64,000 nucleotides of DNA from Achromobacter insolitus. GTDB lineage: Bacteria > Pseudomonadota > Gammaproteobacteria > Burkholderiales > Burkholderiaceae_B. The position numbers and the translations under genes were made by a program. Positions 20,861 to 25,833 of this stretch are shown piece after piece (position 1 is the stretch's first letter; the number at the start of each line of letters is the position of its first letter). The notes under the pieces were generated by a model, which worked only from the letters and a program-made list of their open reading frames with translations, was not told where the DNA came from and did no database searches. The stretch is taken from NCBI RefSeq assembly GCF_002209555.1, contig NZ_NJIF01000006.1, positions 62,001 to 126,000 of the forward strand, read 5' to 3'.

Positions 20861-23461
20861 TCAGCGGCGGAAGCCGCCCCCATGGAAGCCGCCGAAGCCG
20901 CCACCCCAGCCTCCCCGGCCGCCCATGCCGCGCCCCTGCCAGCCGCCGCCTTCGGCGCCGCCCATCCCACGGTCCCGCCACCCACCGCCCTGCCAGCCTC
21001 CGCCTTGCATGCCACGGTCTTGCCAGCCGCCGCCCTCCGCGCCACCCATGCGCTCGCCGGAATAGTCGCGCGCCTGGCGCTGGCCGTTCAGATAGTTGCC
21101 ACCCGACTGCGCGCCAGGCTGCACCGCTTGCCAGCCCGAGCTGGTGTGTTGCTGCCAGCCGTTGTCCGTGTGCTCATAGACGTTGCCATTGCGATCGGCG
21201 TATACGTTGCCGTTGTTCCACGCCATGCCGCTGTCCGTGTTGCGGTTATAGGTGGCGCCGCGGCGGTCCACGCTGCTGGTCCCCTCGCCAGCCGTACCGG
21301 TCGCCGTGGCGGAAGAGATAGTCGTGCGGCCGGTGTTTGTATTCGTACGCACATCCTGGCGGCCGGCGGCCCATTGGCCATCGTCGTTGGCGACCACTCC
21401 CGCGCGGCCGGCGCCGGAAGCCCCCGTCACCGGATTGGTGTAGGCATCGCGCCTGCCCGCGGCCGCATTGCCGGTGTACTCGTTGTAGGCCGCGCCGCGC
21501 GTGCCTTCGAAGGCCGCGCCGGTCTGCGGGTTGTAGCCCTCGGCGTGGGTCCCCTGCCATTCAGTGCCCGTCCAGCCATTCCAGCCGGCCGCGTGCGTGA
21601 CCACGCCGGAACCGCCCCAGGCGCCATAGACGTCCACCTGGTTCACGTTGACCCCGCCCCAATAGGGCGCGCCCCAATACGGCCCCCAGTAGGGAGCCGC
21701 GCCGCCCCAGGTTTCGCCGGCGACAAAGCCAAAAGCGAAGCCGGTCGCGGTGGCGAAGGCCGCGTCGTAACCGTAGCTGGGCGGATAGCCTACCCACGTG
21801 TCCTGCACGATGACCGGCGGATACGCATAACCCGTGCCGTACACCACCGTGCCGTCGGGACTGGCCACCACGCCCATGTAGCCAGGCGTATAGCCGAACA
21901 CCACGCTTTGCGGGGTGGAGCCGTATACCTGCACATAGGTGACGTAGTGCAAGGGGGAACTGACCGGTATCGCGTAGATGGCGGCCGGCACATGATCGGC
22001 CACGCGCCAGGGGCCCATCGGAGAGTCCGCCACGAACCACACCGCGCGCGACAAGGCGTAGTAGCGTCCTTCGGCCTGGATCACCGGCACCGGCGAGTTG
22101 GCCGCGTAGTAAAGCGCCGTGCCCGGGATGGGCCGCAGCGTCGGCGAACCGCCGGCATACTCGACCTGCAGCTTCGCCGCGCTGCGAGACACGGTGGCGG
22201 TCTGCGGAATGGTCGAGGCGATGAGCGCCTCTTTGGCTTGCGGCGTGCCCGGCACCGATGCCAGCACACCCGATTGCGGATCCTGGGCCGGAATCCGCGC
22301 GAAGTCACGCGGCAACTGCTTGCCCGGCACATAGGACCAGGGGCCGTCCAGGCTGGCGCCGCGGAACCAGCGGCCGGACACCAACAGGTAATAGCGGTTG
22401 TCGCCCGGATTCATGAACAGGGCGTGGTCGGCGTTGGCCACCGACAGCAGCGAAGTACCCGGCACGGGCCGCATTTCGGGCTGGCCCACGGTCACCAGCA
22501 ACTCGGCGGGCACGGTCGACACCGCGATGGCCGGCGCGCGATGCGGCGGCTTTCCGCCATGCGGCAGCATCGGATCGGGCGCAGCCTTGCGGCGCGCGGC
22601 GTCAGCGGCCGCAAGCAACGCCGTGGGCGGCTGCGGCAGGTCCGTCCACGGACCGTTGACGCCGCCCGCTTCGTACCAATGCCCGGCCGCTTCGAGGAAA
22701 TAGCGGTCCGCGCCGTTGGCCAGCATCAGTGCGCGCGTATTGACCACCCGGCGCCAGCCCGCGGCCTCGGGCACCTCGGCCAGCACGGGCTCGCCGTCGA
22801 TCAGCACCAGGACGGTGGGCACCGTGCGATAGACGATGCGCGGCGGCGCGTTGTCCACCGGAACCGTCTTCGTGGCCGGATTGTTCTGGGACAGGGTGTA
22901 GCTTAGCTGCAGCGCATCAAGCTTCGTGACCACTCCCTTGGCGGGCAGGCGGGCTTCGAGCTGGCTGCGCAGCCTGGCGGCTTCCTGCGGCGCCGTGGGA
23001 ACCTGCACGCGCTCAATCCGGAAGTCCGACAGGTGCACCAGCCCGGCAGGCTTATTGACCTCGGCCCGCGCGGAAAAATCGGCCACGCCATAGGTCGGGC
23101 TACCCTTGGCGGCGCCGACTGCCACCGCCATCCGGCCCGAAATACGGTCGGCACTCCAGGTATCGATCTGGGGCTGATAGAGCTCCACCCGCGTGCCGTC
23201 GGCAGCCTCGAAGCTGCGCGGCCACTGCAGCGAACGTGCGGCCTCCTCCTGGGCGTCGGATTGGGTGGACGCCGATTGCGTCGGGGTCTGTCCCTGCCCT
23301 TGGGCCAGTGCCACGCCGCCGGGCATCAGGCTCGCGCCGGCAGCCACGCCAGCCACGGCCAATGCGAGGGCGAGGCGTGAAAGACGCCCCGGCGGACTCG
23401 CGGACACGAACGGCGTTGTCGGGGATCCATGCACGCGCCACAGTCGGGTCAGGCTATACAT
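20861..23461 (-). CDS. Large secreted protein with repeated W-GPW modules and a Gly/Trp-rich tail
   Basis: An 866-residue exported protein of unknown function. Signal peptide: hydrophobic LALALAVAGVAAGASLMPGGVALAQG. The middle has four or more modules built around a PG-x-S/A-L-x-x-x-A block, then RYYxLxxxxWxxxxxxxGPW (for example ADRYFLEAAGHWYEAGGVNGPW and NRYYLLVSGRWFRGASLDGPW), suggestive of small beta or SH3-like repeats. Then comes YVQVYGSTPQSVVFGYTPGY, a Trp/Tyr-rich PYWGPYWGAPYWGG run, an Asn/Thr/Gly-rich NxYTGN-type region, and a low-complexity tail of GGGWQDRGM-like repeats. Database relatives are sometimes labelled carbohydrate-binding. The start at 23461 has GAGGAG 7 nt upstream; the open frame continues to 23746. 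It diverges from the sheath operon. Confidence 0.75.
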   Translation of the reverse strand: MYSLTRLWRVHGSPTTPFVSASPPGRLSRLALALAVAGVAAGASLMPGGVALAQGQGQTPTQSASTQSDAQEEAARSLQWPRSFEAADGTRVELYQPQIDTWSADRISGRMAVAVGAAKGSPTYGVADFSARAEVNKPAGLVHLSDFRIERVQVPTAPQEAARLRSQLEARLPAKGVVTKLDALQLSYTLSQNNPATKTVPVDNAPPRIVYRTVPTVLVLIDGEPVLAEVPEAAGWRRVVNTRALMLANGADRYFLEAAGHWYEAGGVNGPWTDLPQPPTALLAAADAARRKAAPDPMLPHGGKPPHRAPAIAVSTVPAELLVTVGQPEMRPVPGTSLLSVANADHALFMNPGDNRYYLLVSGRWFRGASLDGPWSYVPGKQLPRDFARIPAQDPQSGVLASVPGTPQAKEALIASTIPQTATVSRSAAKLQVEYAGGSPTLRPIPGTALYYAANSPVPVIQAEGRYYALSRAVWFVADSPMGPWRVADHVPAAIYAIPVSSPLHYVTYVQVYGSTPQSVVFGYTPGYMGVVASPDGTVVYGTGYAYPPVIVQDTWVGYPPSYGYDAAFATATGFAFGFVAGETWGGAAPYWGPYWGAPYWGGVNVNQVDVYGAWGGSGVVTHAAGWNGWTGTEWQGTHAEGYNPQTGAAFEGTRGAAYNEYTGNAAAGRRDAYTNPVTGASGAGRAGVVANDDGQWAAGRQDVRTNTNTGRTTISSATATGTAGEGTSSVDRRGATYNRNTDSGMAWNNGNVYADRNGNVYEHTDNGWQQHTSSGWQAVQPGAQSGGNYLNGQRQARDYSGERMGGAEGGGWQDRGMQGGGWQGGGWRDRGMGGAEGGGWQGRGMGGRGGWGGGFGGFHGGGFRR

Positions 23462-23540: not shown

Positions 23541-23627
23541 CCATGCGTCAGCCGGCCTCTCTGCGAGGCGTCCTGCATGCGCCGGCTTCTGAATAAGCAA
23601 CAGAACGTTAACACCGCTGAAAAGCTA

Positions 23628-23656
23628 TTGCCCGCTTTTATCAGACCTTCTATAAA
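23628..23656 (+). promoter_or_regulatory. Sigma70-like promoter of the sheath operon
   Basis: TTGCCC (23628-23633, 4 of 6 to consensus), exactly 17 bp, then TATAAA (23651-23656, 5 of 6). No better pair is visible between the divergent genes. Transcription would begin near 23663, leaving a leader of about 195 nt before the sheath start codon. Confidence 0.55.
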
Positions 23657-23858
23657 ACATCTCACCAGGGCTGCTACTTTTGCCCGATTGCCTTTCCGCT
23701 GCAATCCAACTAGAAGCGCGGCGCAACGCCCGCCACACGCCGGCACTCCCGCGCGTTGCGCCTACGCCCGGACCCTTGCCCGAGGCGCTCTGGCCGTCTC
23801 TCGAAGACTCTCCTGCTGCAAGCACACGTCGCCTAGTAGCCGTGGAAAGGAGCAGTTC

Positions 23859-25037
23859 ATGGCGCCTGCCCTGAATCATCCAGGGGTGTATATCCAGGAA
23901 ACGCCCACTGGCGCGCAGACCATTGCCGGCGGGCCCACGTCGGTAGCCGCATTCCTGGGCACGGCCATGCGCGGACCGCTCAACCGACCGGTCCGGATCC
24001 TGGATTTTGCCAGCTACGAACGCGAGTTCGGCGGGCTGGCCGAGGATTGTGACCTCGGCTATGCGGTGCTCCAGTTTTTCCTCAACGGCGGCGCCGAGGC
24101 CTGCGTGGTGCGCGTGGCCCCGCCTGGGCTGAACGGCGCACAGGACGCGCACGCGGCCTTCATCGGCCAACCTGCGCAGCGCCTGGGCCTCCATGCACTG
24201 GACGAAGCCCATCCCTTCAACCTGCTATGCCTGCCTGGCATCACGCACGCCGGCGTGCTTGCCGATGCCGTGTCCTACTGCAAGAAGCGGCGCGCCTTCA
24301 TGATCATCGATGCACCGCCACAGGCGGTCGACGCCGCGGCCATGGCCACCGCCGTCATGGGTTCGGCGCTACCCAGGTCCGATCAGGCCGCCGTATATTT
24401 CCCCTGGATTCAGGCGACCGATCCCCTGCACATCGGCCAGCGCCGATTGACACCGCCCTGCGGCGCAATCGCCGGCCTGTACGCGCGCACCGATGGCAAT
24501 CGCGGCGTCTGGAAAGCGCCGGCCGGCATTGACGCCAGTCTTGCCGGGGTGCTGTCCCTGGCCGTCACGGTCAGCGACGACGAGAGCCGCAACCTGAATA
24601 CCCTGGGTGTCAATTGCCTACGCACGTTCCCCGGACGCGGCACGGTCTGCTGGGGTGCGCGGACCCTCCAAGGCATGGACCACTTCGCTTCGGAATACAA
24701 GTACGTGCCGGTGCGCCGCCTGGCGCTCCATCTGGAAGAATCGCTCTATCGCGGCACGCGGTGGGCCGCCTTCGAACCCAATGACGAACCGCTCTGGGCG
24801 CAGATCAGGCTGAACGTCGGCGCCTTCATGAACGCATTGTTCCGCCAGGGCGCATTCCAGGGCGGCACGCCGCGCGACGCCTATCTGGTCAAGTGCGACG
24901 CGGAGACCACCACGCAACATGACATCGATCATGGCGTCGTCAACATCCTGGTGGGCTTTGCCCCGCTCAGGCCGGCCGAGTTCGTCGTCATCCGCGTGCA
25001 GCAACGAGCGGGACGGACTGAAGGATCGCAGCCATGA
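23859..25037 (+). CDS. Contractile tail sheath protein (eCIS/phage-tail type)
   Basis: A 392-residue sheath protein like those of contractile phage tails and extracellular contractile injection systems. The N-terminus is diagnostic: HPGVYIQETPTGAQTIAGG, then PTSVAAFLGTAMRGPLNRPVRI and FASYEREFGG. The C-terminal domain (about residues 280-385) reads EESLYRGTRWAAFEPNDEPLW, then NVGAFMNALFRQGAFQGGTPRDAYLVKCD and DIDHGVVNILVGFAPLRPAEFVV, which is the interlocking domain of sheath subunits. ATG at 23859 has AAAGGAG 7 nt upstream. No tube, baseplate, spike or tape-measure gene is within the window. It is coupled by ATGA overlap to the AAA+ gene, the usual partner in eCIS loci. Confidence 0.92.
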   Translation: MAPALNHPGVYIQETPTGAQTIAGGPTSVAAFLGTAMRGPLNRPVRILDFASYEREFGGLAEDCDLGYAVLQFFLNGGAEACVVRVAPPGLNGAQDAHAAFIGQPAQRLGLHALDEAHPFNLLCLPGITHAGVLADAVSYCKKRRAFMIIDAPPQAVDAAAMATAVMGSALPRSDQAAVYFPWIQATDPLHIGQRRLTPPCGAIAGLYARTDGNRGVWKAPAGIDASLAGVLSLAVTVSDDESRNLNTLGVNCLRTFPGRGTVCWGARTLQGMDHFASEYKYVPVRRLALHLEESLYRGTRWAAFEPNDEPLWAQIRLNVGAFMNALFRQGAFQGGTPRDAYLVKCDAETTTQHDIDHGVVNILVGFAPLRPAEFVVIRVQQRAGRTEGSQP

Positions 25038-25621
25038 ACGTGCCCGCCGAACCGCGGATTCTGGCGCTGTGGGACACCGGTAGCGAGAGCCGTTCCCACG
25101 CACTGGCACAGGCATCCGCAGGCGCCGAGGCGCTGGCGCGCGAAACCGGGCTGACGCTGCATCGCGTCGACCTTTCTCGCATCATCGGCAAGTACATCGG
25201 GGAAACCGAAAAGAACCTGAACCGCCTGTTCGAGTCCGTGGAGCAAGCCGGCGCCATCTTGCTGTTTGACGAAGCCGACGCGCTCTTCGGCAAACGCACG
25301 AACGTCAGGGACAGCCATGACCGCTACGCAAACATCGAGGTCAGCTACCTGCTCCAACCCATAGCACCGTACCTCGGCCAGGCGTCCGGGGCCGCGGGCC
25401 TTAAGTCCAACGTGGACAGCACGTTCCTGCGGCGGCTACGCCTTGTTGTCGTGTTTCCGGCTGCCGCGCCGGATCCCCGCGCGCGCATCTGGCGCCGCGC
25501 ATTCCCGGCCGCCGCCCCCGGCGCCGAAGTCACCATGACGCGCCTGCTGCAAGCGGTCCGCGCCGAAGCAACCCCACATGCCCGGCCCTTGCCTGGCACC
25601 AAGCTGAGAGAACATCCATGA
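25034..25621 (+). CDS. AAA+ ATPase-like protein, eCIS type, with degenerate Walker A
   Basis: A 195-residue protein clearly derived from the AAA+ ATPase of contractile injection loci. Residues 31-110 read AEALARETGLTLHRVDLS, IIGKYIGETEKNLNRLF, AILLFDEADALFGKRT (Walker B at 75-80) and RYANIEVSYLLQ. FLRRLRLVVVFP (131-142) holds the arginine finger. The P-loop expected before AEALARE is replaced by WDTGSESRSHALAQASAG, with no GxxxxGK[ST]. Sensor 1, usually LATN before LKSN, is GAAGLKSN. Nucleotide hydrolysis is therefore doubtful. The N-terminal domain of full-length relatives is absent. ATGA overlaps couple it to both neighbours. Confidence 0.85.
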   Translation: MNVPAEPRILALWDTGSESRSHALAQASAGAEALARETGLTLHRVDLSRIIGKYIGETEKNLNRLFESVEQAGAILLFDEADALFGKRTNVRDSHDRYANIEVSYLLQPIAPYLGQASGAAGLKSNVDSTFLRRLRLVVVFPAAAPDPRARIWRRAFPAAAPGAEVTMTRLLQAVRAEATPHARPLPGTKLREHP

Positions 25622-25833
25622 AACCCGTCATCAATGAGTATGTCCGCGAGCTCAGCCACCCTGGCTACGACGCGGCCCAGCGCAATGCCTTCGTCGCCGC
25701 CATGGTTAGCAGGCGGCTGATGCGGCGCACGGAGGAGCAGCGCGAGGCGGGCGAGGCCGATGCCGCGCTGGCAAGCGCCCTCGGCGACAATGCCACGGGC
25801 TCTGACGCCCGCGCCGACAACGGCAAGACTTGA
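25618..25833 (+). CDS. 71-residue protein, third gene of the sheath operon
   Basis: A small acidic/basic helical protein (MKPVINEYVRELSHPGYDAA..., ending in a polar GDNATGSDARADNGKT tail). No signal peptide, TM helix or known motif is visible; the segment NAFVAAMVSRRLMRRTEEQ looks like one amphipathic helix. Its ATG overlaps the stop of the AAA+-like gene, which makes it a genuine coupled gene and a likely partner of the sheath or ATPase-like protein. No function can be assigned. Confidence 0.7.
   Translation: MKPVINEYVRELSHPGYDAAQRNAFVAAMVSRRLMRRTEEQREAGEADAALASALGDNATGSDARADNGKT

Follow-up and report, generated by a model that had tools for sequence, protein, structure and literature searches.

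In injection machines the tail sheath is the part that contracts, and a sheath gene that stands apart from such a machine raises the question of whether it still serves the cell. We analyzed a case of this kind in Achromobacter insolitus, within a stretch of 64,000 nucleotides (assembly GCF_002209555.1, contig NZ_NJIF01000006.1, positions 62,001 to 126,000 of the forward strand; hereafter the window). Here, a tail sheath gene, a gene derived from the AAA protein of extracellular contractile injection systems (eCIS) and a gene for a 71-residue protein form a bare trio. An initial annotation of the window had left two readings side by side, a decayed remnant or a stand-alone sheath system, and our comparison supports a part of each: the trio is a remnant by origin, with complete clusters at the same locus in six relatives, and it has been kept as a unit, in seven species and with ratios of nonsynonymous to synonymous substitution rates (dN/dS) below 1. 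We put at roughly 70% the probability that the trio is an eCIS that was reduced by deletions and then kept by selection for a non-injecting role, judging from sequence comparison. The locus comprises the following elements:

23,600–23,735, + strand: promoter-like site and 5′ leader block (−35 TTGCCC at 23,628–23,633, 17-nt spacer, −10 TATAAA at 23,651–23,656)
23,859–25,037, + strand: tail sheath gene, 392 amino acids (PF04984/PF17482), core fold without insertion domain
25,034–25,621, + strand: fusion gene, 195 amino acids, 5′ end of a baseplate-like gene fused with the Walker-B portion of an AAA gene (PF00004, blastn map and alignment)
25,618–25,833, + strand: 71-amino-acid gene, homolog of the 80–85-amino-acid gene that follows the AAA gene in the full cluster

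The sheath gene, the 71-residue gene and the two ATGA overlaps of stop and start codons (25,034–25,037 and 25,618–25,621) stand as initially annotated. The sheath gene starts with ATG at 23,859, preceded by AAAGGAGCAGTTC. The ribosome-binding site and this ATG are retained in the alignment of all seven trio genomes, and an earlier start within the long open frame, where GTG at 23,193 is the first candidate, was rejected on this ground.

The trio occupies the locus of a full eCIS cluster

To place the trio among its relatives, the sheath was searched in 43 Achromobacter genomes, including the present one (G000, 6.44 Mb). A match was obtained in 17 of them, and 16 of these fall into three classes at one locus; G026, whose match has 24% identity and belongs to another kind of sheath, was left out of all class counts. 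The lack of a match in G033 and G027 says little, as these assemblies are 57% and 78% complete. Six genomes (class F: G003, G007, G014, G024, G032 and G037) encode a 760-residue sheath followed by an eCIS cluster. Seven genomes of seven species (class A: G000, G001, G004, G005, G016, G041 and G042) carry the bare trio, among them the named records Achromobacter xylosoxidans B_1 and A. anxifer LMG 26857. The three remaining genomes (class B: G008, G022 and G039) encode a sheath of 371–375 residues, which in G039 and G008 is followed by a small gene made of the first tube-gene codons fused to the AAA Walker-B piece (L063 10,521–10,850 and L065 10,596–10,895).

The cluster of Achromobacter sp. 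Root83 (L028) served as reference. Its Pfam matches comprise a tube protein (PF06841, 10,961–11,482), Pvc16_N, an AAA protein with a winged-helix domain and eCIS_core (PF13699). Two weaker matches accompany these, one to a baseplate protein (PF12322, below threshold) and one to CIS_tube, slightly short of its cut-off. Further large genes downstream, including Baseplate_J-like ones, are common to G024 and G032. All six class F genomes contain the full-length AAA protein, the tube, Pvc16_N, the small gene, eCIS_core, an 818-residue Baseplate_J-like protein and a 375-residue protein. The last three of these gave no match in any of the ten class A and B genomes, and the tube search outside class F returned a single 31-residue start, in G008. 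A further eCIS_core (PF13699) gene, distant from the cluster, is present in every class F genome, whereas the ten class A and B genomes gave no match at all.

Mapping the trio DNA onto L028 by blastn yielded five collinear blocks at window positions 23,801–24,117, 24,153–25,005, 25,014–25,074, 25,123–25,513 and 25,499–25,739, the last three of which correspond to L028 11,478–11,538, 15,631–16,021 and 16,106–16,343. Relative to the full cluster, the trio shows at least four internal deletions and the loss of the right side; no match to cluster DNA right of the small gene was found in this map. Three of the joins can be located in the window:

24,118–24,152, + strand: join within the sheath gene, 371-codon insertion domain lost in frame (L028 8,870 to 10,019)
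25,006–25,013, + strand: join at the lost tube gene (L028 10,871 to 11,478)
25,075–25,122, + strand: join of the baseplate-gene start and the AAA gene, placed somewhere inside this stretch; ~4.1 kb of the cluster missing

The sheath and fusion joins are alike in all seven trios, except for a one-codon gap in G004. The trios are monophyletic in the sheath tree (support 94/94) and in a tree of the divergent neighbor gene that marks the locus (100/99; see below). Class B forms a separate clade in both (100/99 in the sheath tree; 100/97 in the marker tree, together with G002 and G019). Classes A and B group together in a sheath tree with outside rows (84/83) and in the midpoint-rooted marker tree (98/98); as the trees were midpoint-rooted for drawing, this sisterhood rests on the outside-row sheath tree and on the chosen marker root. 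Common descent of the trio with the full eCIS cluster is thus supported by the same locus, the collinear blocks, a common promoter block and the trees. The joins of the two reduced classes differ, leading from the baseplate-gene start to the AAA gene in class A and from the tube start to the AAA gene in class B. Fully independent reductions were nevertheless rejected because the break points at the insertion domain and in the AAA gene are only tens of bases apart in the two classes, so that the first steps may have been shared.

Beyond the genus, 268 genomes of the family were searched. A wide distribution of the trio was rejected: there are six sheath matches outside Achromobacter, of which the two close ones (G192 and G193) have a tube gene adjoining and the four distant ones, at 28–33% identity, were followed no further. 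The initial expectation of a bare trio conserved across genera was therefore not borne out in this search, in which the trio was seen in one genus only.

The trio sheath retains the conserved core of CIS-type sheaths

The sheath matches PF04984 (E 6.9e-16) and PF17482 (E 2.8e-10). In a phmmer search the best chain was 8bky, from the contractile injection system (CIS) of Streptomyces coelicolor (E 1.1e-73), and Foldseek returned E-values of ~1e-31, which identifies the protein as a CIS-type tail sheath. Its AlphaFold model has a mean predicted local distance difference test score (pLDDT) of 84.9 and a predicted TM-score of 0.85, with stretches below 50 only at residues 1–15 and 386–392. The best Foldseek matches are the sheaths of H. 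borinquense (9ezm) and of the S. coelicolor CIS (9gts, 8bky), contracted ones included (9ezm, 8bky). Compared with the 760-residue sheaths of the full clusters, 371 alignment columns are missing from the trio sheath. Sixty-four of the 70 residues that are invariant in nine reference eCIS-type sheaths are retained in all seven trio sheaths, including 7 of 9 in the first 28 and all 10 in the last 28 residues. Eight of these references have a tube match in their locus, and none was found for L041.

A sheath made without its machine has precedents in phages. According to the available part of PMC6357053, the sheath gp053 of phage FV3, made alone without other viral proteins, forms stable tubes and tolerates the removal of as many as 25 residues from its N-terminus or 100 from its C-terminus, whereas tubes no longer form once 29 N-terminal residues are removed. 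Likewise, the accessible text of PMC9230969 describes extra sheath domains as additions onto a conserved core and reports a tendency of recombinant T4 gp18 to form polysheaths. Thus, neither the loss of the insertion domain nor a looser N-terminal constraint would by itself forbid sheath assembly, and we infer by analogy that the trio sheath may assemble.

The second gene is an AAA-derived fusion without Walker A

The second gene had been described as an eCIS-type AAA+ gene. Its AAA-type character holds (PF00004, E 1.7e-12), whereas it does not encode an intact ATPase. Instead, the start of a baseplate-like gene of 244 residues is joined in frame to the Walker-B part of an eCIS AAA gene, and residues from ~31 onwards align to the AAA protein of the Achromobacter full cluster. 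Walker B (LLFDEADALFGKR) is retained, and the Walker A loop is absent, both in the five trio rows aligned to the full AAA protein and, by inspection, from the other two trio sequences. The AAA lid has lost 33 codons as well, and in G004 this deletion is replaced by a larger loss. The fusion thus lacks the pairing of Walker A and Walker B in one domain that defines an AAA+ ATPase, and from what is general in the AAA family ATP hydrolysis would not be expected. PADLOC returned generic AAA similarity only.

The small gene is a probable eCIS component

Strong matches to the 71-residue protein (E≤1.4e-27) occur in 13 of the 268 family genomes, which are exactly the six full-cluster and the seven trio genomes. 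At E≤0.01 there are 16 matching genomes, the three others being weak, and G007 has one weak extra match. A gene of 78–104 residues directly follows the AAA gene in seven of nine other eCIS loci examined (likeness judged by eye), so the small gene seems to be an eCIS part. NCBIfam, PHROGs and PADLOC gave nothing for it, and Pfam one match under its cut-off (E 0.019). Residues 1–38 differ strongly between the full-cluster form and the trio form and hardly vary from one trio to another, a pattern like that expected after a single change of partner by the small protein.

Several eCIS proteins have no match in the genome

The initial annotation had seen no contractile machine parts around the trio. 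For the eCIS this extends to the whole genome, in which the eCIS tube, Pvc16_N, eCIS_core, the 818-residue Baseplate_J-like protein and the 375-residue cluster protein have no match at E≤1e-3. A full-length eCIS AAA protein likewise gave no match; the genome-wide searches did not cover spike, PAAR, tape-measure or lysis genes. The only other AAA match (32%) is of a kind found in nearly all 43 genomes. With tube and baseplate missing, injection by the trio would be excluded.

The absence does not hold for contractile tails of every kind, as a prophage-type tail with sheath, head-closure and tape-measure matches lies on another contig (L080 4,969–10,529). That the trio is a piece of this tail was rejected, because the prophage-type sheath sits on that other contig with tail genes adjoining. 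The two sheaths also differ in their match to phrog_23 (E 3.9e-129 for the prophage-type sheath versus 6.5e-61 for the trio sheath).

The reduced genes evolve under constraint

Each pair of trios diverged after the shared deletions, so that pairwise dN/dS reports on selection acting on the reduced form. Values were calculated with our own pairwise script (codon model with F3x4 frequencies) and not with an established package; for this purpose the AAA part was cut at residue 141 in G004 and at its stop in G042. All seven sheath frames and all seven small-gene frames are open. The sheath has a median dN/dS of 0.139 (range 0.078–0.168, 21 pairs), and twice the log-likelihood difference (2ΔlnL) against a value of 1 is 55–186 in all 21 pairs, in keeping with the low dN/dS that had been proposed as a sign of a functional unit. 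The medians are 0.195 for the fusion gene (below 1 with 2ΔlnL >3.84 in 20 of 21 pairs) and 0.229 for the small gene (distinguishable from 1 in 19 of 21). For comparison, the marker gene and lysE in the neighborhood give 0.041 and 0.006 (six pairs each), the sheath core of the full clusters 0.019 (15 pairs), the class B sheath 0.139 (3 pairs) and the class B tube-start/AAA fusion 0.289 (2ΔlnL 15.2, one pair).

Constraint was also resolved by segment, where values for short segments are rough and the full-cluster run gave numerical warnings (class F in brackets):

Sheath: residues 1–25, 0.387 (0); 26–90, 0.129 (0.008); 91–120, 0.321 (0.037); 121–200, 0.134 (0.035); 201–278, 0.063 (0.018); 279–340, 0.118 (0); 341–392, 0.115 (0)
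Fusion: residues 1–36, 0.151; 37–112, 0.126 (0.003); 113–141, 0.191 (0); 142–195, 0.599 from 10 pairs (0.073)
Small protein: residues 1–38, 0.043 (0.041); 39–71, 0.170 (0.247)

The constraint on the sheath is weaker than in the full clusters yet plainly present, and that on the start of the small protein is as strong as there. For the two most recently diverged sheath pairs the values are 0.135 (95% interval 0.089–0.217) and 0.116 (0.066–0.187), which argues that the constraint is recent. In 500 runs of a neutral simulation, with branch lengths set by hand from pairwise dS, 6.97 of 7 sheaths were broken on average and all seven remained open in none; the corresponding counts of runs with all seven copies open were 0 of 500 for the fusion, over its first 141 codons, and 2 of 500 for the small gene. 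Wrong-frame controls on the six sheaths of equal length gave medians of 1.7–3.7 in four of five frames. Broken frames and a dN/dS near 1, the marks of a pseudogene, are thus found in neither the sheath nor the small gene and in part in the AAA tail. The initial annotation had named a complete eCIS cluster at the same locus, together with pseudogene-like decay of the trio, as evidence against a functional unit; the cluster is there in six relatives, and the decay is limited to the AAA tail.

Promoter block and neighboring gene

The promoter claimed for the trio is borne out as a promoter-like site, TTGCCC-17 nt-TATAAA at 23,628–23,656, identified by eye within a conserved block. A promoter scanner that requires the second hexamer to end in T lists no promoter here. 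Of the 136 columns in the block 23,600–23,735, 116 do not vary among the seven trios; for third codon positions in the sheath gene the figure is 160 out of 389. The block also occurs in all six full-cluster genomes; in the three of class B, a −10-like TATAA remains and the leader is mostly gone. About 38 leader bases 3′ of the −10 hexamer are identical or nearly so across the four trio and six full-cluster genomes aligned. Judging from this conservation, the block may contain a regulator site or a structured leader.

Upstream of the trio lies the gene that served as locus marker:

20,861–23,461, − strand: divergent gene of 866 amino acids, outside the trio, present at the locus in relatives

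It occurs in 17 of the 43 genus genomes. Of the 16 genomes with the sheath locus, 15 have it adjoining, and G039 has the sheath without it. It is also found in G002, which holds a scrap of the sheath gene, and in G019, which holds none. Pfam, NCBIfam and PADLOC returned no match at the cut-offs used. The gene may be a functional partner of the trio or a mere marker of the clade.

Discussion

How a reduced injection locus could still be of use is best considered from its parts. In the model we propose, an eCIS was cut down in the ancestor of at least seven Achromobacter species by deletions that, where they fell inside genes, were all in frame. The sheath core, with most invariant residues of its end regions, would assemble in the cytoplasm without a tube, much as phage sheaths do when made alone. 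The AAA-derived fusion, presumably ATP-dead, could be a binding piece or adaptor, and the 71-residue protein could be a partner in sheath assembly through its start, where constraint is strongest. A possible precedent for an eCIS AAA protein that works independently of ATP hydrolysis is Pvc15, whose unfolding of tagged proteins is said to survive mutation of its Walker motifs (PMC11495950, available part). We think it likely that the trio is a selected and functional unit. That it works as a tube-less sheath assembly is a tentative proposal and carries well under even odds. The same doubt attaches to the wider scenario, in which an eCIS became a tube-less, non-injecting three-gene sheath assembly maintained by selection throughout one clade of Achromobacter, and a sister lineage, via partly different deletions, also kept the sheath core and a Walker-B scrap of the AAA gene, which in that lineage is fused to the beginning of the tube gene.

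Several observations weigh against a selected role of the whole trio in sheath assembly. The bare trio was not found outside Achromobacter, and the sister lineage loses the locus stepwise, from the sheath with or without the AAA scrap (G039, G008 and G022) to a scrap (G002) and to none (G019). Constraint on the trio sheath is ~7 times weaker than in the full clusters (0.139 vs 0.019). It is weakest in residues 1–25 (0.387 vs 0), so that the lattice could be no longer selected. The AAA tail is decaying, with a stop after 152 residues in G042 and a frame lost after 141 in G004; the AAA value of the pair G016–G042 (0.78) is indistinguishable from 1, as are two small-gene pairs, and the AlphaFold model of the fusion reached a pLDDT of only 35. 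One antisense control frame was also low (0.20, with 53 stops in six copies), which we tentatively attribute to wobble positions facing each other. Finally, the particles of the Photorhabdus virulence cassette (PVC) form without Pvc15, as stated in the accessible part of PMC11495950, and this leaves no known reason for a sheath to need an AAA piece.

Some of these points could also be read as slow decay, the machine being lost and its leftovers merely slow to disappear. The locus does offer a decay series, from the full cluster over the trio and the sheath with or without AAA scrap to an out-of-frame start of ~35 sheath codons in G002 (by eye) and to G019, where no sheath match was obtained and no trace was seen by eye beside the marker gene; the AAA tail is broken in two of seven trios, and constraint is below that of the full clusters. 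However, all seven sheaths and small genes are open where neutral evolution would leave almost no sheath intact, the youngest sheath pairs still show values of 0.12–0.14, and the N-terminus of the small protein is as constrained as in the full clusters, so that we regard mere decay as improbable. We give less credence still to the idea that only the 71-residue gene matters, the frames before it being held open by translational coupling through the two ATGA overlaps. Residues 1–38 of its product do have the lowest dN/dS of the trio segments tested, and the gene's strong family matches coincide with the 13 full-cluster and trio genomes. Yet coupling preserves frames and not amino acids, and low values are also found in the sheath (0.063 at 201–278) and the AAA part (0.126 at 37–112). 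In addition, the AAA frames of G042 and G004 no longer end at the start of the small gene, which is nevertheless intact, and class B keeps the sheath without a counterpart of the 71-residue gene.

A different kind of selected role would be that of a decoy or dominant-negative set, which spoils the assembly of related contractile machines in the same cell. The retention of a polymer-forming protein and an ATP-dead AAA piece, with the rest lost, would suit such a role, and the poisoning of a structure by incomplete parts is plausible. Against this, the trio and a full cluster do not occur together in any of the 43 genus genomes, the sheath bears only a distant resemblance to those of phages and pyocins, and the fusion resembles AAA proteins only generically in PADLOC; we consider a decoy highly unlikely. 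Reduction of an eCIS followed by selection for a non-injecting role therefore remains our preferred reading.

Compared with known eCIS (Afp, PVC, AlgoCIS and Streptomyces CIS), the trio shares the sheath sequence and fold, the AAA part and the small gene that follows it, and its locus and promoter block match those of the eCIS cluster of six relatives. It differs in that its genome has no match to the tube, Pvc16_N, eCIS_core or the 818- and 375-residue proteins, and that no AAA gene with Walker A is found at the locus. By the published filter of at least ten core genes (PMC8213781, as given in its available part), it is not an eCIS operon, though descended from one. Polysheaths of FV3 gp053 and T4 gp18 likewise consist of a one-domain sheath core without tube or baseplate, but these are recombinant products, whereas the trio is a natural operon encoding nothing else of the machine, with a sheath that is a candidate for such assembly. 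Rhapidosomes, tubular bacterial particles that are possibly sheath-like tubes, may be a further parallel, though one without a genetic link in the present comparison. The AAA protein of the Achromobacter cluster is taken here as the counterpart of Pvc15, without direct comparison. Pvc15 loads cargo into the tube and loses its ATPase activity when the Walker B glutamate E555 is changed, according to the available part of PMC11495950; the fusion differs in having no Walker A and no tube to load. In the open-licence literature, as far as its available texts go, we found no description of a conserved tube-less sheath operon and no report of eCIS in Achromobacter, and Achromobacter together with a tail sheath protein led to phage papers.

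If our reading is correct, the trio might be a stand-alone sheath polymer, and a sheath still selected without tube, baseplate and ATPase would be direct evidence that a sheath alone can serve the cell. The series found in Achromobacter at one locus, from full cluster, trio and sheath only to scrap and empty site, makes the question of a sheath without firing testable.

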